21,377 nt of DNA from a virus, in the IMG/VR virus record IMGVR_UViG_3300044949_000227, positions 1-21,377 of that record; one strand, written 5' to 3'. Positions 106 through 20,587 of this stretch are shown here, in pieces (position 1 is the stretch's first letter; the number at the start of each line of letters is the position of its first letter). The translations under genes were made by a program, and so were the position numbers. The notes under the pieces are model-generated. The model was given only the letters and a program-made list of their open reading frames with translations, ran no database searches and had not been told where the DNA came from.

Positions 106-1845
106 ATGGACACTTTAACAGCCCTTAAAGACGATTTTCGACTATTCCTTCAAGCACTATGGTCACAGTTAGATCTACCCTCACCAACACGAGCACAATA
201 CGCTATTGCTGATTACCTACAACACGGGCCAAAACGACTACAGATCCAAGCATTTCGTGGTGTAGGTAAGAGCTGGATTACTGGAGCCTTTGTGTTGTGG
301 ACATTGTTTAACAACCCAGAAAAGAAAATCATGATTATCTCCGCTTCCAAAGAGCGTGCTGATAACATGTCGATCTTTCTTCAGAAGCTAATCATTGAGA
401 CACCTTGGCTAGTACATCTAAGACCGAAGTCGGATGATGCCCGGTGGTCACGGATTAGCTTTGATGTGAACTGTTCTCCTCACCAAGCACCTTCAGTTAA
501 GTCAGTTGGTATCACAGGTCAGCTTACTGGTAGCCGTGCAGACCTTATGATTCTTGATGATATCGAAGTTCCAGGTAACTCAATGACTGAGATGATGCGG
601 GAAAAGCTGCTACAACTGTGTACAGAAGCTGAGTCTATCTTAACACCAAAGAAAGACAGCCGAATCATGTACCTTGGTACACCACAGACTACCTTTACCA
701 TCTATCGTAAGCTAGCTGAACGTAACTATAAACCATTCGTTTGGCCTGCACGTTACCCACGTAAACTATCTAACTATGAAGGACTCCTTGCACCACAAGT
801 ACAGGAAGATATCGAAAATGGTGTTGAACCTTGGGATGTAACAGACCCTGATCGCTTCTCTAATGAAGACCTAGTAGAACGTGAAGCTTCCATGGGTCGT
901 AGCAACTTTATGCTACAGTTCATGCTAGATACCAGCCTTAGTGATGCTGAGAAGTTCCCACTTAAGATGGCAGATCTTATCGTTACAGCAGTTAACCCTA
1001 AGGAATGTCCTGATGCTGTAGTGTGGTGTTCAGATCCCAGTAATGTCATTAAAGACTTGCCAACTGTTGGTCTACCTGGCGACTATTTCTATTCACCAAT
1101 GGTCATGCAAGGTGAGTGGTTACCTTACACAGAAACTATCTGCTCTGTAGACCCATCAGGTCGTGGTACAGATGAAACAGCTGCCTCTTTCCTTAGTCAA
1201 CGTAATGGTTTCATCTATCTCCACGAGATGCGTGCATATCAGGATGGTTATTCCGATAATACACTGTTAGATATTCTTAGAGGCTGTAAAAAGTACGGTG
1301 TTACTAAACTCCTAATTGAGACAAACTTTGGTGATGGTATTGTCGGTGAACTCTTTAAGAAACACCTTCAACAAACTAAACAAGCAATCGACATCGAAGA
1401 AGTACGTGCTAATGTCCGAAAGGAAGATCGTATTATCGACACACTAGAACCTGTTCTTAATCAACATAAACTGATTGTTAATAGGTCAGTTGTAGAATGG
1501 GATTTTAACTCAAATAAAGACGCAGCTCCAGAGACACGACTCCTATACATGCTATTCTATCAAATGAGTCGTATGTGTCGTGAAAAAGGTGCAGTAAGAC
1601 ATGATGATAGACTAGACTCACTAGCTCAAGGTGTTAAATACTTTACAGATGCTCTAGCTATCTCAGCATATGAAGCTATTAAGACACGTAAACAAGAAGA
1701 CTGGCTTGATATCCAAGAATCTTGGCTAGATGACCCCCAATCTGCAGCTAATCATATGGCATTTGGGTTCAATTTAGACCAACGTAGACAAGCAAGACAA
1801 CTAGCTGGTAAGTCCTCAGTTCCTACATATTTTATAGTTAATTAA
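106..1845 (+). CDS. terL: Terminase large subunit (DNA packaging ATPase/nuclease)
   Basis: This is the motor of DNA packaging. It docks on the portal, translocates DNA with its ATPase and cuts the concatemer with its nuclease. At 579 residues it matches T7 gp19 (586). The ATPase domain shows a Walker A-type loop, RGVGKSW (residues 51-57), and a Walker B strand, LMILDDIE (residues 147-154). The nuclease domain shows the acidic strand VDPSGRGTDE (Asp349) and a late acidic pair in HDDRLDSL (Asp500/Asp501). The frame is open to a TTG at 16, but the 30 extra residues are unlike the family, and MDTLTALKDD from the ATG at 106 is a normal start. It is followed by 260 bases without a gene, then a terminator. 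In T7 this gene lies at the right genome end, which bears on where the ends fall here. Confidence 0.95.
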   Translation: MDTLTALKDDFRLFLQALWSQLDLPSPTRAQYAIADYLQHGPKRLQIQAFRGVGKSWITGAFVLWTLFNNPEKKIMIISASKERADNMSIFLQKLIIETPWLVHLRPKSDDARWSRISFDVNCSPHQAPSVKSVGITGQLTGSRADLMILDDIEVPGNSMTEMMREKLLQLCTEAESILTPKKDSRIMYLGTPQTTFTIYRKLAERNYKPFVWPARYPRKLSNYEGLLAPQVQEDIENGVEPWDVTDPDRFSNEDLVEREASMGRSNFMLQFMLDTSLSDAEKFPLKMADLIVTAVNPKECPDAVVWCSDPSNVIKDLPTVGLPGDYFYSPMVMQGEWLPYTETICSVDPSGRGTDETAASFLSQRNGFIYLHEMRAYQDGYSDNTLLDILRGCKKYGVTKLLIETNFGDGIVGELFKKHLQQTKQAIDIEEVRANVRKEDRIIDTLEPVLNQHKLIVNRSVVEWDFNSNKDAAPETRLLYMLFYQMSRMCREKGAVRHDDRLDSLAQGVKYFTDALAISAYEAIKTRKQEDWLDIQESWLDDPQSAANHMAFGFNLDQRRQARQLAGKSSVPTYFIVN

Positions 1846-3008: not shown

Positions 3009-3046
3009 AAGCCCTTCTGGGTCGTTCTGGAGGGGCTTAGATTTTT
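3009..3046 (+). terminator. Intrinsic terminator after thyX
   Basis: A ten-pair stem with two G-U pairs (arms aagcccttct, 3009-3018, and ggaggggctt, 3029-3038) has a ten-base loop and is followed by AGATTTTTG. It insulates the region that follows from thyX transcription. Its T-tract overlaps the -35 box of the next promoter, so termination and early initiation are packed together. Confidence 0.85.
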
Positions 3047-3074
3047 GACAGAAATTTCTCAAGTCTTATATAAC
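3045..3074 (+). promoter_or_regulatory. Host sigma-70 early promoter (candidate P1)
   Basis: A perfect -35 box TTGACA (3045-3050) is followed after 16 bases by TATATA (3067-3072), or after 18 by TATAAC (3069-3074). A start near 3080 would send host RNA polymerase into the early genes, as the A promoters do in T7. The site lies immediately after a terminator and before the early cluster, which is the expected place. No activity data are available. Confidence 0.65.
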
Positions 3075-3086
3075 GCTGGACCAGCG
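3074..3086 (+). repeat. GC-rich palindrome at the inferred early transcription start
   Basis: CGCTGG and CCAGCG are separated by one A (3080), a near-perfect 13-base palindrome just where P1 would start transcription. A second palindrome, AGAAATTTCT (3050-3059), lies in the promoter spacer. Either could be an operator or the 5' hairpin of the transcript; this is inferred from position alone. Confidence 0.4.
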
Positions 3087-3303
3087 CCGCAGCCCCCCAT
3101 AGGGGTACCCCCCCGGATCACACGTGCACACGCCCGTAGGCACCAGCATGTACGCACCCAGGCACACGCATAGCCGTGTCCAGCGCATCTGCATCAGGCA
3201 CAGGTACGCAGGACATAGGCGCATGGCCAGACACACACGCACACACGAGGAGTGGACAGTAGCACAACTGTACTACCTATCAATCTCACACATCTGTCGA
3301 CCC

Positions 3304-3327
3304 TTATTGAGAACGTTATTGAGAACC
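3304..3327 (+). repeat. Tandem 12-base repeat in the leader
   Basis: Two adjacent units, ttattgagaacg (3304-3315) and ttattgagaacc (3316-3327), differ only in the last base. They directly precede the second copy of the terL-side block (3329-3384). Each contains TTGAGA, like a -35 box, but no -10 box lies at a useful distance. Confidence 0.5.
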
Positions 3328-3328
3328 C

Positions 3329-3384
3329 AGTCATACCAACGGATCTCAGCGATTAACTGTACCATCAGCAACACTGATAACCGC
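3329..3384 (+). repeat. Left-end copy of the two-part block found after terL
   Basis: Here agtcataccaacggatct (3329-3346) matches 1851-1868 at 16 of 18 positions, and gataaccgc (3376-3384) matches 1874-1882 exactly. The spacing between the parts is 29 bases here and 5 bases after terL. Order and strand are conserved. Confidence 0.5.
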
Positions 3385-3599
3385 TGCACCGCAATGGATC
3401 AGGCTGTACTATGTGCCACTTACTCCAACTGTCCACCACACTGAGCTGCTACTGTGAACCCATACTCTTCTTTGAATGTTGAGTTACTCGACTCTCCCTG
3501 TTAAGGGTGAGGAGAGTCTCGAAACTTCAACCAGAAGAGATGAGAACCTCCAACCTGACCACTCTGCCGACCCATAAGGAACGCTGATCGGTCAACCCC

Positions 3600-3628
3600 T
3601 TGACAAGCCGCCGCTCACCGGTTACAGT
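3600..3628 (+). promoter_or_regulatory. Second host-type promoter candidate (P2) within the leader
   Basis: TTGACA (3600-3605) and TACAGT (3623-3628) are separated by 17 bases. The -35 box is perfect and the -10 box matches TATAAT at four of six positions. Tandem early host promoters are the rule in T7 (A1-A3), so a second start here is plausible. It would give a leader of about 230 bases. The -10 region overlaps a small inverted repeat (3614-3618/3627-3631). Confidence 0.4.
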
Positions 3629-3780
3629 GAGTACACGAACCTCGACAACCGAATAAGCACACCGTCAGCGGAGCAACCGCTAGGTCTCGACAAGCAGCAT
3701 GGGTCAGTGACTGCGAGGTGTGGTAGAGTACACAGACCGCCGAGCCACAGGCGGTATACAAGTATGATCATGGCACCACA

Positions 3781-3820
3781 TGCGTCTGTTGTAGCGGTGA
3801 AAGCGATACGCTAAGACGCA
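3781..3820 (+). other. Bulged stem-loop upstream of the first early gene
   Basis: Arms tgcgtct (3781-3787) and agacgca (3814-3820) pair perfectly. After a four-base bulge on the left, tagcg (3792-3796) pairs with cgcta (3809-3813). That makes 12 pairs around a 12-base loop, about 45 bases before the first early ATG. There is no T-tract, so it is not an intrinsic terminator. A ribonuclease III site, a regulatory element, or part of a larger RNA fold are all possible. Confidence 0.6.
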
Positions 3821-3847
3821 CCCGACGGCGACTAGTCGTCACCTATC

Positions 3848-3855
3848 CACTTGCT
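3848..3855 (+). promoter_or_regulatory. CACTTGCT element, copy 1, at the Shine-Dalgarno position
   Basis: The octamer CACTTGCT starts 16 bases before the ATG of the first early gene. The same octamer precedes the next two genes (4175-4182 and 4526-4533) at 18 and 16 bases. None of the three has a purine-rich Shine-Dalgarno sequence. A translation or processing signal is inferred. Confidence 0.45.
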
Positions 3856-3863
3856 TCATTACT

Positions 3864-4103
3864 ATGTTCAGCTTCAACGTTGTTAACCGCACTTCGTCTG
3901 CCATTGATTGTCTGCTTGTTGATCCCATGCGTGGCACTGCATGTGTCATCTTCAAGAATGGGTACAGCTATGTATACCTCAATGTGTCTCGTCGTGCTAT
4001 TGTTAACCTGCTCATGAATAAGAACATGAGCCTTGGTTTCTGGGTTAACGAGAACCTGATCAACACTAAGCGTGTCTTTGAGCAGCGCATTGCTGCTGCT
4101 TGA
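3864..4103 (+). CDS. First early gene; KTSC-domain-like small protein
   Basis: A 79-residue protein. The stretch TSSAIDCLLVDPMRGTACVIFKNG (written here only as a range, residues 10-33), then YSYVYLNV, a Leu-Leu pair and SLGFWVNENLI, follows the pattern of the KTSC family. That pattern is a small beta-rich domain with S-x-I, V-x-F-x-x-G, Y-x-Y-x-x-V, S-x-G-x-x-x-N-x-x-I; its biochemical role is unknown. As the first gene behind the host promoters it is probably made within minutes of infection and could modify the host. The start is preceded by CACTTGCT rather than a Shine-Dalgarno sequence. The domain call is from memory of the motif pattern, not a search. Confidence 0.75.
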   Translation: MFSFNVVNRTSSAIDCLLVDPMRGTACVIFKNGYSYVYLNVSRRAIVNLLMNKNMSLGFWVNENLINTKRVFEQRIAAA

Positions 4104-5520: not shown

Positions 5521-5635
5521 AGAGTTCAACGAGTTCGCTAACCAGTATCCTGAGCTGGCGGATTGTGTTTGTCTTGATGAGGTAATTGTGTCTATTGATG
5601 AGCTTATGTTCGGTGACTACGAGGTACATAACTGA
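5504..5635 (+). CDS. 43-residue acidic protein directly before RNA polymerase
   Basis: A very short frame (MILTTEEFNEFANQYPELAD and onward) that length cut-offs miss. It ends in a TGATG overlap with the RNA polymerase ATG, so translation of it would deliver ribosomes to the polymerase start, which lacks its own clear Shine-Dalgarno sequence. It is strongly acidic. The evidence is the coupling and the absence of any other coding use of 5521-5634. The function is unknown. Confidence 0.6.
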   Translation: MILTTEEFNEFANQYPELADCVCLDEVIVSIDELMFGDYEVHN

Positions 5636-7974
5636 TGCCTACACCTGCTCAGATTGATGAACAGGTGCAGCTTGAGCGTGACCAGATACGTCAAGGTCTT
5701 AAGCGATTACGGGACAACACGGACGCACTACAGCAGCGTAGCTATGCGTCCTCTACGGTGTATGGTATCGCTTCGATTGATATCCTCTTACCTATCCTTG
5801 TGAAGAGGTTGGAGGATACCAACAAGCGTATCCATGAAGGTCACAACGGTAAGGCATTCAAAGAGATTGCACATTACATCAGTGACCTAGAACCATTAGC
5901 TGCTGCTGCTATTGCACTGAAGCTTACCTTTGATAAGGTCTTCAGTTACAAGGAAGGCAGTGATCAGGTGCAATCAGTATGTGATGCAGTCGGTTCAGCT
6001 ATTGAGGCTGAATGTCAGATGCGTTACTATGAACGCTGTGCACCTGGTCTACTTGATACACTGAAGAAGAACTACTGGCACAAGTCATGTGGTACACAAC
6101 AGAAGTTAACTGTTGTACAAACATTGATGAACCGTAGTGATATCCAACAGTGGCAATCATGGGGCAGAGCTAATCGCATCAAGCTTGGTGCATGGCTGCT
6201 TGACTGTATCATTGAGGTATCTAACTGGTTCACCAAGGACCTACGCAGGGAAGGTAAACGTACTACTACGTATGTGATACCGACACCTGAGTTCATCGCT
6301 ATCAAAGATAAGGTGATGAAGGATGCTGAGTTATTTGCTCCACTTGCTTGGCCAATGTTGATTGAGCCAAACGATTGGACCAATGACAGAGCTGGTGGGT
6401 ACCTGTTGAATGAGGTGATGCGTGGTCATGATATGGTACGGAGGGGCGACAGCCGCCGTATACAGGGAGAAACACCGATCAACTTTCTGAACAAGATTCA
6501 GAAGGTTGCCTTCACTCTAAACCCTTTCATAATGGAGATTGCAGAAGAACTAGATGGATTGGAACGAGCAGTTGGTAAGTTCCTCCCTATTGTGAATCAT
6601 GAGTTACCACCTAAGCCTTATGATATTGCGGAGAATGCAGATTCTCGTAAAGCATATCGTAGAGCAGCAGCGGAAACAATGAATCTGAATGCACAAGAGT
6701 TTAAGAAATCTTGTCGCACTCGGATGACTATGGAGGCAGTGAAGAGGTTCAAGAACGTAGCTAAGTTCTACATACCTTGGAGCTTTGACTATAGAGGAAG
6801 AGCTTATCCTATTCCTGCCTTTCTTACTCCTCAAGATACAGACTTTGGAAAAAGTTTATTGATCTTTGCTGAGGGGTCTTATGTAACTCCTGAAGCTGAG
6901 GATTGGTTAGCCTTTCAAGTTGCTACAACATTTGGTCTTGACAAAGCACCAATGGCTGAGCGACTAGAATGGGCAAGGAATAACCATGAATTGTTCACAC
7001 TCATAGCAACAAATCCTGTTGGTTACTTACATCTTTGGGACAATGTAGAGGAGCCTTGGCAATTCCTTGCAGCTGTTGAAGAGTATTACCATTGTGTCGT
7101 AGTTGCCGATAGGCAGTTCACACGTCTTATGGTGGCAACTGATGCTACCTGCAGTGGTCTACAGATCCTTGCAGGATTAGCTAGGGATAAGTCCACAGCA
7201 CGTCTTGTGAATGTCTTACCTGGTGATAAGCCACAAGATGCCTATAAGGTTGTTGCGGAGGCAGCAACACCTTACTGTCCTGAATCTATCCAACCTTACA
7301 TGGATAGAAAGACAGTTAAGCGTGTCGTTATGACTGTTCCTTATAATGCTAAACCATTCTCAAATCGTGGGTACATCAGAGACGCACTTGCTGAGAAGGG
7401 TGTAGAGATTAGTAAGGAAGACCTAACCAAAACAGTTAAGGCTGTACGCAATGCAATGGATGTTGTCGTACCTGGTCCGATGGCTGTTATGAAATGGATT
7501 GAGGATGAAGTTGCTAATGCAATCAAATCTGGTAAGGAGTTCTTAGAATGGACAACGCCATCAGGGTTTGTTGTTCATCAGAAGCTCAACAAGAAGTTAG
7601 TTGTTGAGTTAGCATTACAGCTATTGGGTCGTTGTAGGATGCAAGTTGCAGTTGATGATACAGATGAGGTAGACCTCAATCATCACAAGAACGCAACAGC
7701 TCCTAACTTGATTCATAGTTTAGATGCTAGTTTGCTACACTTGAGTGTCTTACGATTTGACGCACCTATTGCTCTCATTCACGATTCTGTGCTTTGTCGT
7801 GCAACGGACATGTCCGCCCTTTCATCCATTGTACGAGAAACGTACATGCACTTGTTCGCAGAGCATGACTACCTAAAAGACTTTGCTTCACATATTGGAG
7901 CAGAGACTGAACCACCGATAGTCGGAGACCTTGAACCGGAATCCGTAATCGAATCCACCTACTTTTTCTGTTAA
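5635..7974 (+). CDS. T7-like single-subunit DNA-dependent RNA polymerase
   Basis: This is the phage transcriptase that takes over middle and late genes from host polymerase. It has 779 residues against 883 in T7. Core motifs are intact: WSFDYRGRAYPIP; motif A DATCSG with catalytic Asp503; motif B RKTVKRVVMTVPY with Lys562 and Tyr570 at the same eight-residue spacing as T7 Lys631 and Tyr639 (Tyr639 selects ribonucleotides); and motif C LIHDSV with catalytic Asp717. The end, YFFC, keeps the aromatic C terminus that T7 polymerase needs in its active centre, though with a final Cys. The start is set by a TGATG overlap and the end by a TAATG overlap with SSB. A candidate promoter for this enzyme lies within the gene at 6453. 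Confidence 0.96.
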   Translation: MPTPAQIDEQVQLERDQIRQGLKRLRDNTDALQQRSYASSTVYGIASIDILLPILVKRLEDTNKRIHEGHNGKAFKEIAHYISDLEPLAAAAIALKLTFDKVFSYKEGSDQVQSVCDAVGSAIEAECQMRYYERCAPGLLDTLKKNYWHKSCGTQQKLTVVQTLMNRSDIQQWQSWGRANRIKLGAWLLDCIIEVSNWFTKDLRREGKRTTTYVIPTPEFIAIKDKVMKDAELFAPLAWPMLIEPNDWTNDRAGGYLLNEVMRGHDMVRRGDSRRIQGETPINFLNKIQKVAFTLNPFIMEIAEELDGLERAVGKFLPIVNHELPPKPYDIAENADSRKAYRRAAAETMNLNAQEFKKSCRTRMTMEAVKRFKNVAKFYIPWSFDYRGRAYPIPAFLTPQDTDFGKSLLIFAEGSYVTPEAEDWLAFQVATTFGLDKAPMAERLEWARNNHELFTLIATNPVGYLHLWDNVEEPWQFLAAVEEYYHCVVVADRQFTRLMVATDATCSGLQILAGLARDKSTARLVNVLPGDKPQDAYKVVAEAATPYCPESIQPYMDRKTVKRVVMTVPYNAKPFSNRGYIRDALAEKGVEISKEDLTKTVKAVRNAMDVVVPGPMAVMKWIEDEVANAIKSGKEFLEWTTPSGFVVHQKLNKKLVVELALQLLGRCRMQVAVDDTDEVDLNHHKNATAPNLIHSLDASLLHLSVLRFDAPIALIHDSVLCRATDMSALSSIVRETYMHLFAEHDYLKDFASHIGAETEPPIVGDLEPESVIESTYFFC
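6453..6470 (+). promoter_or_regulatory. Candidate phage promoter inside the RNA polymerase gene
   Basis: CCGCCGTATACAGGGAGA matches 1879-1896 apart from one extra G, and its end is close to the T7 start region TATAGGGAGA. It would drive the downstream replication genes. Because it is also coding (reads SRRIQGE), conservation at protein level is an alternative explanation. Confidence 0.35.
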
Positions 7975-10627: not shown

Positions 10628-10760
10628 AGACGGATACCCAAAGTACCTTGATGCGGAGAACGATCCGTACATCTATCTCAAAGCACCCAACCCTCCCACA
10701 CCTGAGGCAATCAAGCGAGCACAGTTCGTCGATAAGACCTATCGCTGGACTGGCAAGTAA
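10596..10760 (+). CDS. 54-residue hypothetical protein between helicase and polymerase
   Basis: A short frame (MTTLTQRQISEDGYPKYLDA and onward, ending TYRWTGK) that overlaps the helicase end by 32 bases and ends in a TAATG overlap with the polymerase ATG. It contains a Pro-rich middle (KAPNPPTPEAIKRAQ). It explains the otherwise empty 130 bases between the two genes and probably couples their translation. The function is not recognised. Confidence 0.65.
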   Translation: MTTLTQRQISEDGYPKYLDAENDPYIYLKAPNPPTPEAIKRAQFVDKTYRWTGK

Positions 10761-11278
10761 TGCACCTCGTATTTGATCTCGAAACTGACGGTCTCTACGA
10801 TGATTGCACCCAAATTCACTGTCTTTGCATCCACGATCTCGATGCCAAAGAAGATCACGTCTTCAATGATCAAGGCTCTGCACAACCTATCACGAAGGGT
10901 ATCCAGCTCCTTGAAGACGCCGATGTTGTTATTGGTCATAATATTATCGGCTATGATCTTAGTGTTATCAGTAAGCTCTATCCTTGGTTTAACAAGCACG
11001 ATGGGGTTATTGATACTCTGGTTCTTAGTCGTATTTATCACGCTGACCTGCTGAAGACTGATCAGAAGAGGAACTGGAAACACATGCCTCTTCAGCTGTA
11101 CGGTCGTCACTCGCTTGAGGCTTATGGCCACAGGCTGGGTGAATACAAGGGCAGCTTCGGCAAGACCACTGACTGGAAAGAGTGGTCAGAGGAGATGGAA
11201 AATTACTGTCTCCAAGACGTACATGTGACTGTAAAACTTTGGCACCATTTCCGCAAATACCTGACTTCATCAAACTAG
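10760..11278 (+). CDS. DNA polymerase, N-terminal exonuclease part (frame ends early)
   Basis: This is the 3'-5' proofreading domain of a T7 gp5-like polymerase. The metal-binding motif FDLETDG is at residues 5-11, then VIGHNIIGYDL, IDTLVLSR, HSLEAYGHRLGE and the last motif, ENYCLQDVHVT. Homology is good to HHF (Phe164), then the frame gives eight unrelated residues and a TAG at 11276. The polymerase domain continues in the -1 frame from about 11251. One extra base in the run at 11248-11250 would join both into a 582-residue enzyme. The start makes a TAATG overlap. Confidence 0.88.
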   Translation: MHLVFDLETDGLYDDCTQIHCLCIHDLDAKEDHVFNDQGSAQPITKGIQLLEDADVVIGHNIIGYDLSVISKLYPWFNKHDGVIDTLVLSRIYHADLLKTDQKRNWKHMPLQLYGRHSLEAYGHRLGEYKGSFGKTTDWKEWSEEMENYCLQDVHVTVKLWHHFRKYLTSSN

Positions 11279-12507
11279 AGCATGATGTCGCAACAATCCT
11301 CACCAAACAGGAGATCTATGGCTGGCGATTTGCTGAAGATGCTGCACGGGAACTTGAGTCGAATCTCAGACGAGAGCTTGAAGGGCTTAGTCAGTTACTT
11401 CGCAACAGGTATCCTTACGTCGCAGACCGAGAGTTCACTCCGAAAAGAGTTAACCGAACCACAGGCTATGTAGCAGGTGCTCCACTCACAAAGCTGAAGG
11501 AGTTCAGCCCTACCAGTCGAGACCACATCGCCTGGGTAATGGAGAACCTGCACGGCTGGCAGCCTGATAAGACAACAAAAGCTGGCAAGACTGCCATCGA
11601 TGAGACTGTGCTCAAAGACATTGGGACTGAAGAAGCCCTTCAGTTCTTTCGGTGTCTTGAGCTAACCAAGCAGCTCGGTATGTTGTCTGAAGGCAAGAAT
11701 GCCTGGCTAAAGTTGGTACGTAACAATCGTATCCACCACCACTGTTCAGTTGCTACTAACACATTTCGATGCGCTCATCGTAACCCCAACCTTGCGCAGG
11801 TACCCAGTGATCTTAACTTTAGAAAGCTATTTACCGCTAGCCCTAGCCATGTCATGGTTGGTGCTGACCTCGCAGGCATTGAACTTAGAATGCTCGCACA
11901 CTACCTTGCTCGATATGATGGAGGCAGGTACGGAGACGTACTTCTCAACGGTGATATACACCAAGAGAATGCCGACAAGATTGGAATCTCTCGTCGTCTA
12001 GTAAAGACTGTAACTTATGCCTTTCTGTACGGAGCCGGTGACCAAAAGATCGGATTATCTTATGATGCGCAGTTATCACCTAAGGATGCCAAAGCTAAAG
12101 GCGTCGAGATACGCCAAGCTTACATGGATGCAATTCCTGGACTTGAGAAACTGGTTACTGCGGTTAAGTCCAAGGCGGAATCTGGTTACATTAACCTGTG
12201 TGACGGTCGCCGCTGCGCTGTTGATGGTAGCCACAAAGCCCTTAACTACCTACTCCAAGGGAGCGCGGGTATTGTAGCAAAACAATGGATGGTTCACACT
12301 CATAATGTAATCAACCAAGGTCAAATTAATGCACACCAACTAGCATTTATCCACGACGAATTGCAGTGGGAATGCTTACCAACTTATGCAGAGGATCTAA
12401 AAAATCACCTAGAGATGTGCGCTGCACTAGCTGGTGAATACTATAACCTCCGCGTTCCCATAGCTGCTGAAGGAAAGATCGGCAGTAATTGGGCTGAAGT
12501 CCACTAA
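11251..12507 (+). CDS. DNA polymerase, C-terminal polymerase part (frameshifted, no own start)
   Basis: The thumb, fingers and palm of the same family A polymerase. Numbered as one chain from 10760, it shows motif A GADLAGIELRMLAHY (Asp370), motif B RRLVKTVTYAFLYGAG and motif C IHDELQW (Asp533/Glu534). The frame is open back to a GTG at 11182, but the residues before 11251 match nothing in the family. The first ATG after the shift lies about 95 codons in, past much of the thumb. Independent translation is therefore unlikely; a sequencing or assembly indel, a real mutation, or ribosomal slippage must link the halves. The loop corresponding to the T7 thioredoxin-binding insert is much shorter than T7's 76 residues. 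Confidence 0.88.
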   Translation, partial: PQIPDFIKLEHDVATILTKQEIYGWRFAEDAARELESNLRRELEGLSQLLRNRYPYVADREFTPKRVNRTTGYVAGAPLTKLKEFSPTSRDHIAWVMENLHGWQPDKTTKAGKTAIDETVLKDIGTEEALQFFRCLELTKQLGMLSEGKNAWLKLVRNNRIHHHCSVATNTFRCAHRNPNLAQVPSDLNFRKLFTASPSHVMVGADLAGIELRMLAHYLARYDGGRYGDVLLNGDIHQENADKIGISRRLVKTVTYAFLYGAGDQKIGLSYDAQLSPKDAKAKGVEIRQAYMDAIPGLEKLVTAVKSKAESGYINLCDGRRCAVDGSHKALNYLLQGSAGIVAKQWMVHTHNVINQGQINAHQLAFIHDELQWECLPTYAEDLKNHLEMCAALAGEYYNLRVPIAAEGKIGSNWAEVH

Positions 12508-20127: not shown

Positions 20128-20356
20128 TGTCAGCCTAAAGATTGGTAAACATAAATCACGCACTGGTGGTCTGACGGCTGCCGGTCGTGCTAAATATAAT
20201 CGAGAGACTGGTTCTAATCTGAAGGCTCCACAGCCTGAAGGAGGACCACGTAAGCGTTCCTTCTGTGCCCGTATGGGTGGTGTGAAGGGACCGATGAAAG
20301 ACGAGAAGGGACGTCCTACTCGCAAAGCACTAGCCCTACGTAAGTGGAAATGTTAA
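20108..20356 (+). CDS. 82-residue basic protein conserved in cyanophages
   Basis: MAQRKNSVSLKIGKHKSRTG, then LTAAGRAKYNRETGSNLKAP and a Gly/Lys/Arg-rich end with CARMGG and KGPMKDEKGRPTRKALALRKW. The block from LTAAGRAKYN to ARMGGVKGPM is recognisable as a widely shared phage domain of unknown function; I know no assigned activity. It is highly basic with two Cys, so nucleic-acid binding or packing inside the virion is plausible. The next gene starts one base after its stop. Confidence 0.78.
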   Translation: MAQRKNSVSLKIGKHKSRTGGLTAAGRAKYNRETGSNLKAPQPEGGPRKRSFCARMGGVKGPMKDEKGRPTRKALALRKWKC

Positions 20357-20506
20357 ATGGCTAAACCTGGATTATACGCTAACATTAATGCTAAGCGTGA
20401 ACGCATTAAAGCTGGTAGCAAAGAAAAGATGAGGAAGCCTGGATCCCCTGGCGCTCCAACTGCTGCTCAATTTAAGAAGGCAGCTAAGACAGCTAAGAAA
20501 AAGTAG
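20357..20506 (+). CDS. 49-residue Lys/Ala-rich protein
   Basis: MAKPGLYANINAKRERIKAG, then KMRKPGSPGAPTAAQFKKAA and a Lys end. The MRKPGSPGAPTA motif recurs in small proteins of many phages, including cyanophages; the function is unknown. It begins immediately after the previous TAA. It is the last of the small basic genes, and is followed by an 81-base gap containing a strong hairpin. Confidence 0.72.
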   Translation: MAKPGLYANINAKRERIKAGSKEKMRKPGSPGAPTAAQFKKAAKTAKKK

Positions 20507-20515
20507 TATTGGTAG

Positions 20516-20546
20516 ATCCGTCAATACTGCGCGTGTATTGGCGGAT
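20516..20546 (+). other. 12-pair hairpin between the basic genes and the RlpA-like gene
   Basis: Arms atccgtcaatac (20516-20527) and gtattggcggat (20535-20546) pair at all 12 positions (one G-U), with a seven-base loop. No T-run follows, so it is not a standard terminator. It may be a processing site protecting the hli-side or psbA-side message. Downstream AGTAGGAG (20549-20556) is a rare Shine-Dalgarno-like string, but 31 bases from the next ATG. The rest of 20547-20587 is AT-rich and holds nothing else clear. Confidence 0.65.
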
Positions 20547-20587
20547 TAGTAGGAGTAATCAATATTAAAGTTCTTCGCTTTATTATT

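Follow-up and report, generated by a model that had tools for sequence, protein, structure and literature searches.

The window analyzed here is the whole of a 21,377-base linear virus fragment from IMG/VR, which begins with terL (16-1845), followed by a 64-aa ORF, thyX (2297-2932) and a terminator-like hairpin. Beyond these lies a gene-free gap of about 790 bases (3075-3863), downstream of which are the early genes and a T7-like RNA polymerase (5635-7974). The maps of complete relatives end on the right with the terL-thyX segment and begin on the left with the early genes, indicating that the contig spans a genome junction and that the gap corresponds to a genome end. Going by this gene order, the end in question is the left one of a T7-type cyanophage, brought into the contig via a concatemer or an assembly junction. 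The features recognized in and around the gap are as follows:

3009..3038, + strand: intrinsic-terminator-like hairpin (13-bp stem and T run) closing the terL-thyX transcription unit immediately ahead of the genome end
3043..3074, + strand: conserved left-junction motif TTTTGACAGAAATTTCTCAAGTCTTA|TATAACG across the predicted left cleavage 3068|3069, found directly 5' of the repeat in relatives
3069..3291, no strand: predicted direct terminal repeat (DTR) of ~223 bp, one copy in the contig, placed by aligned left ends, the ATCTGT right edge and the DTRs of relatives
3292..3298, + strand: ATCTGTC, T7-type concatemer-junction (class II) RNA polymerase pause motif, starting at the first base after the DTR
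3304..3326, + strand: TTATTGAGAAC occurring twice as a direct repeat at a 12-bp interval, conserved beside the junction
3450..3455, + strand: candidate host sigma70 -10 hexamer TACTGT, with a predicted start at ~3461-3463, the foot of the 5' hairpin
3465..3539, + strand: 5' hairpin with a covarying outer helix, a tandem GA/GA internal loop and an invariant 35-nt core (3487-3521)
3600..3628, + strand: TTGACA-17-TACAGT, another candidate host promoter, which some of the relatives share
3658..3722, + strand: three-way junction identified by covariation, with closing helix 3658-3663/3717-3722 and hairpins 3667-3681 and 3694-3714
3737..3774, + strand: H-type pseudoknot, with stem 3737-3741/3750-3754 and loop GCCA (3744-3747) pairing with TGGC (3771-3774)
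3782..3819, + strand: 3' bulged hairpin identified by covariation, with the conserved loop GTGAAAGCGATA
3864..4103, + strand: first early gene (gene 1; 79 aa, phrog_7365, unknown function), which lies outside the RNA and sets its 3' limit

The initial annotation had treated the gap as one structured leader, for which it offered three options, namely a non-coding RNA, a processed leader, or an end or replication sequence. The gap is real, but it is not a single unit: comparison with relatives divides it into a predicted terminal repeat at ~3069-3291 and a conserved folded RNA confined to ~3462-3863, such that the first 220 bases are end sequence and the last 400 specify a covarying structured RNA. 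Nor is its length surprising for a compact T7-like genome, as had been supposed. The first gene of T7 starts at 925 and the first annotated genes of the cyanophages P-SSP7, S-TIP37 and S-SBP1 at 1079, 761 and 649. A long gene-free left end is normal among T7-like phages, and as a genome end the present one is an ordinary T7-type end.

The absence of a credible gene from the gap is borne out by the relatives. A 106-aa ORF on the + strand (3124-3444) has no PHROG match and shows in-frame stops in 38 of its 57 tblastn matches among relatives, a 58-aa minus-strand ORF has stops in 21 of 36 relatives' matches, and the longest ATG-initiated ORF within 3292-3863 is only 49 aa long. Given the lack of a PHROG match and the broken reading frames, a protein-coding explanation of the gap was rejected. 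None of the 125 matches to gene 1 contains a stop. In S-CBP4 the annotated gene S-CBP4_0001 (257-652, minus strand) overlies the structured RNA; its frame is not conserved, with stops in 40 of 83 matches, and it is probably not a real gene. Two further observations concern annotation in these phages. An unannotated gene-1 homologue (45% identity) is present at ~703-891 in P-SSP7, in the supposedly non-coding region upstream of ORF1. Elsewhere in the window, two overlapping ORFs (10760-11278 and 11182-12507) occur where the DNA polymerase of S-TIP37 and P-SSP7 is split or frameshifted between its exonuclease and polymerase parts.

Predicted terminal repeat and concatemer junction

The ends of P-SSP7 have been directly sequenced, revealing a 206-bp repeat at each end and showing that a 728-bp region lies upstream of ORF1 and not, as assembled, downstream of the last ORF (PMC3350473). 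Exact end repeats are likewise found in the deposited records of P-SSP7 (206 bp), S-TIP37 (150 bp), S-SBP1 (180 bp) and Syn5 (237 bp), and the rule applied to the window predicts repeats of 162-261 bp in 20 relatives. The left ends of P-SSP7 and S-SBP1 align as TATACG...GGACGCA...CCCCC, with that of S-TIP37 being identical but shifted by one base, and the window aligns with these three ends at 3069 (TATAACG...CGCCGCAGCCCCCC). Immediately 5' of the cut the window, P-SSP7, S-TIP37 and S-SBP1 share the motif TTTTG(A/G)CA(A/G)AAAT...(A/T)A, of which Syn5 possesses a weaker form without the TATA part. The window thereby combines the left-end sequence of a T7-type genome with a conserved motif directly 5' of the repeat. 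As the contig has a single copy, we infer the DTR at 3069-3291, and cleavage at ~3068|3069 is predicted from the relatives.

This placement alters the reading of the near-consensus host promoter originally assigned to the leader. The TTGACA...TATA arrangement is indeed present at 3045-3074, but the predicted terminase cut splits it. On linear virion DNA its two halves would be parted, so it could not drive the leader on incoming DNA; hence, it makes a more plausible junction motif than leader promoter. On the other side of the repeat, the tandem TTATTGAGAAC copies (3304-3326) resemble TATTGAGAAT repeats lying inside the DTR of Syn5, and these may be binding sites. The S-CBP4 record (positions 1 and 44147) is opened within its terminal repeat and lacks an end repeat, like the earlier misassembly of P-SSP7.

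In T7 the concatemer-junction pause has an established role in packaging. The 160-bp repeat of T7 is followed at position 161 by ATCTGTT, which is the only coding-strand copy of this heptamer; two extra copies of the shorter ATCTGT (2072 and 5219) are both in the early region. ATCTGTT is the class II termination or pause sequence of the T7 concatemer junction (PMC11617373), and the Syn5 polymerase, like that of T7, gives a terminated product on a template with a class II site, the site having been mapped for the T7 polymerase (PMC9624206). ATCTGT is also the first sequence after the repeat in S-TIP37 (151), S-SBP1 (181) and Syn5 (238), with no other coding-strand copy there, and P-SSP7 has at the same place ACCTGTTG, in which the junction motif takes the form ACCTGTT. 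The window displays the same T7-type configuration: its single coding-strand ATCTGT, at 3292, follows the repeat without a gap and fixes the right edge of the predicted DTR.

This arrangement extends across the related contigs. Exactly one coding-strand ATCTGT was found in all 114 of those with enough upstream sequence, the distance from it to the RNA core downstream being 150-220 nt in 110 of them. In six cyanophage genomes (L001, L003 and L028-L031, where L001 is S-CBP4, L028 S-TIP37 and L030 P-SSP7) there are 5 copies on the coding strand as against 169 on the opposite strand. Within their ORFs a single copy was observed, compared with ~38 expected from synonymous-codon shuffling. Among all common 6-mers of the six genomes ATCTGT is the second most depleted, exceeded only by a palindrome. 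These counts suggest that a T7-style polymerase pause has constrained cyanophage genomes. Because the coding strand carries the motif once, at the junction, and otherwise avoids it, sequence alone suffices to find where the DTR ends on the right in assembled T7-like cyanophages. Separately, the palindromes TTCGAA and GCATGC are strongly depleted in the same six genomes, which suggests restriction-site avoidance.

The predicted folded RNA and its variation

The region ~3462-3863 encodes, on the evidence of covariation, a folded RNA of four domains: the 5' hairpin, the three-way junction, the pseudoknot and the 3' hairpin. The inverted repeats reported earlier are present, including a 12-pair bulged hairpin (3782-3819) and a branched arrangement (3658-3722). 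Both of these are upheld by compensatory changes in relatives, and the refuting test set by the initial annotation, a lack of such changes, did not refute it; the pseudoknot had been missed. The covariation score of each of the four domains exceeds every one of 500 shuffles and all slid controls. The underlying counts come from related sequences and are not independent events, and the slid controls retain this relatedness, yet they score far lower each time. Single-sequence folding is barely unusual relative to shuffles (z -1.9 for 3462-3863 and -1.3 for 3075-3461), and on energy alone the fold could be due to chance; the case for the RNA is therefore evolutionary rather than thermodynamic.

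The 35-nt core of the 5' hairpin is nearly invariant and palindromic, and was recovered in at least 119 viral stretches and in none of 84,980 bacterial and archaeal genomes. The arms around it vary yet remain complementary: across 32 distinct arm types the duplex energy of the 5' helix is -18.5 kcal/mol for the true arms, a value that none of 5000 permutations equalled (-11.0 after permutation; z -12). This hairpin shows 97 double-change cells against 29 in shuffles and a covariation score of 0.300 against 0.076, with slid structures reaching at most 0.093. In the three-way junction 93.5% of the cells are paired, with 85 double changes versus 30 in shuffles and a score of 0.479 versus 0.148. 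The pseudoknot has 91 double changes versus 32 and a score of 0.497 versus 0.103, its loop helix being paired in all 53 sequences through six different pairings (GCCA/TGGC, GCCT/AGGC, GGCA/TGCC, CCCA/TGGG, GTCA/TGAC and TGCA/TGCA). The corresponding values for the 3' hairpin are 96.4% paired cells, 20 double changes versus 7.7 and a score of 0.431 versus 0.178.

Given the immediate closeness of these inverted repeats to the DTR and the junction, and the palindromic nature of the invariant core, they might instead act as DNA, in the form of a replication origin or of terminase or maturation recognition sites by the genome end. This we consider quite improbable, as conserved loops, a long-range pseudoknot with six pairings and an asymmetric three-way junction are expected of an RNA and not of DNA sites, and as the foot of the 5' hairpin and the -10-like element are in phase.

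In the relatives examined the RNA keeps one position, at the left end of the genome, with terL-thyX on one side and the early genes on the other. Its composition is modular, with whole hairpins being inserted, deleted or swapped. In 46 of 83 relatives the 3' part contains a T-arm-like hairpin, whose loop is either TTCGAGT or TTTGAGT and for which several compensating stems are seen. In many of them it replaces the 3' bulged hairpin, and it is absent from the window. Inspection of the KBS-P-1A sequence revealed a T-arm-like hairpin along with another hairpin within an acceptor-like helix. ARAGORN made no tRNA or tmRNA call.

P-SSP7, which belongs to another genus, has a hairpin at 363 with the same topology (helix, GA/GA loop, helix, U-U mismatch, helix), located 156 nt after its junction motif and preceded 45 nt 5' by TAGAAT. 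A covariance model built from the main group (R1) found no match in P-SSP7, Syn5, T7 or the diverged loci; homology with the P-SSP7 element thus rests on topology, position and the -10 element. The P-SSP7 end accordingly resembles that of the window in its left-end motif, its junction motif and the spacing of a -10 element 45 nt from a hairpin of like topology, but differs in its diverged sequence, the lack of an R1 match and the presence of a T-arm-like element. A second T-arm-like hairpin in P-SSP7 (AGAGG-TTCAATT-CCTCT, at 1022) is situated just before ORF1 and is possibly tied to the integrase attachment site.

Predicted transcription and potential functions

With the motif at 3045-3074 set aside, the hexamer at 3450-3455 and the TTGACA-17-TACAGT element at 3600-3628 are better candidates for the promoters of the leader. 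Of 106 distinct relatives, 98 have a TAnnnT element at -39 to -35 relative to the invariant core, its three middle bases varying as in a -10 box; no canonical -35 is evident upstream of the hexamer at 3450. Downstream of the core, TTGACR-17/18-TAnnnT occurs in 15 of 96 sequences (the window and 14 others) as against 0.2 expected. No terminator was seen between the RNA and gene 1. The invariant core was also considered as a phage promoter and dismissed, having no further copies elsewhere in the genome, as was a promoter of the Syn5 phage polymerase, for which the window contains only chance-level matches with 3 mismatches. The resulting layout follows the left end of T7: in both, the DTR gives way directly to ATCTGT, beyond which lie a host-promoter region and then the first early gene. 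T7 has three annotated major host promoters (A1-A3) and a phage promoter there. No phage promoter was recognized in the window, which instead combines one or two candidate host promoters with a conserved structured RNA.

We favor, with a probability of about two in three, the reading that the terminal repeat and junction are followed by a host-transcribed structured 5' leader of the first early message, which is possibly processed into a free RNA. It builds on direct properties of the aligned sequences, namely the layout of the junction with its one copy of the motif, the covariation of the structure and the fixed position of the -10-like element. From these we infer the transcription start, strand, pausing, cleavage and leader role in the following scheme. 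A phage RNA polymerase that arrives from the right end late in infection would pause at the ATCTGT at 3292, just past the repeat, and as in T7 the pause would mark where the terminase cuts the concatemer. When the linear genome enters the cell, the host RNA polymerase would start near 3462, and in a subset of phages also near 3635, to make the first early transcript, which may be the first RNA made in infection. Its first ~400 bases would fold into a 5'-terminal hairpin, the three-way junction, the pseudoknot and the 3' hairpin ahead of the gene at 3864. The leader would most likely both protect the message and aid its processing, with the stem-loop at the 5' end guarding against 5'-dependent decay and the folded modules allowing host enzymes to process or stabilize it.

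The gene that follows the leader is mostly a gene-1 homologue, with different genes in S-CBP3, L125, L058/L087, L145 and S-CBP4, though this census of first ORFs is blurred by spurious ORFs inside the RNA. As the leader is kept while the first genes differ, a riboswitch or autoregulation specific to one gene is unlikely; better suited is a general role in 5'-end protection, processing or translation of the early message, or a role in trans. The structure is also more elaborate than simple mRNA protection needs, which favors an additional or trans role. The folded region might accordingly be released as a stable non-coding RNA acting in trans on a host factor, as a tRNA mimic, decoy or scaffold, for example via a cut by host RNase P, Z or III at a tRNA-like or 3' hairpin. 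Such release would account for the elaboration and the whole-module swapping, for the presence in 46 of 83 leaders of T-arm-like domains whose stems show compensating changes and for conservation independent of the first gene. It is nevertheless rather unlikely, as no terminator is seen between the RNA and gene 1, and as the window lacks the T-arm and ARAGORN finds no tRNA or tmRNA. It is conceivable, albeit doubtful, that the region defines a novel class of non-coding RNA in phages. Such an RNA would be the first product of infection by T7-like marine cyanophages, transcribed by the host polymerase and then freed from the early transcript, and would act in trans as a tRNA-like mimic, decoy or packaging factor built of exchangeable folded modules.

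Comparison with known phage RNAs

Podoviruses of marine picocyanobacteria are widespread, and a folded RNA kept at the left end of more than 100 of their genome contigs and absent from Rfam would constitute a new phage RNA family. A covariance search of the window and its relatives against 4227 Rfam families, at gathering thresholds and at relaxed E-values, matched nothing relevant, the negatives including GOLLD, ROOL, the phi29 pRNA and the known cyanophage motifs. No description of this RNA was found in the literature searched, which covered few subscription journals. The likeness to GOLLD and ROOL raised by the initial annotation consequently has no Rfam support. These two RNAs are found in phages, often near tRNA islands (PMC12286853). 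The present RNA is, like them and OLE, a large structured RNA, but it is shorter and has a fixed place at the left end of the genome.

Like the packaging RNA of phi29, it is a structured RNA encoded at a phage genome end. It might thus be asked whether it serves as a comparable packaging RNA for a terminase without a recognized small subunit, since it is encoded beside the packaging end and the gene before terL matches no small-terminase family in the relatives tested. We regard this as very improbable indeed: there is no Rfam match to the pRNA, no use of RNA is known for T7-type packaging, and a divergent small subunit may simply escape recognition. The packaging motor of phi29 is of another family, and there is no sequence match to its pRNA.

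Other structured RNAs reported in cyanophages include the manA, wcaG and PhotoRC-II motifs (PMC2864571) as well as Glutamine-II; unlike the RNA described here, these are short and lie beside particular genes, and none matches at this locus. Matches to the Glutamine-II riboswitch do occur just downstream of psbA in S-TIP37 (20335-20388) and P-SSP7 (20522-20575).
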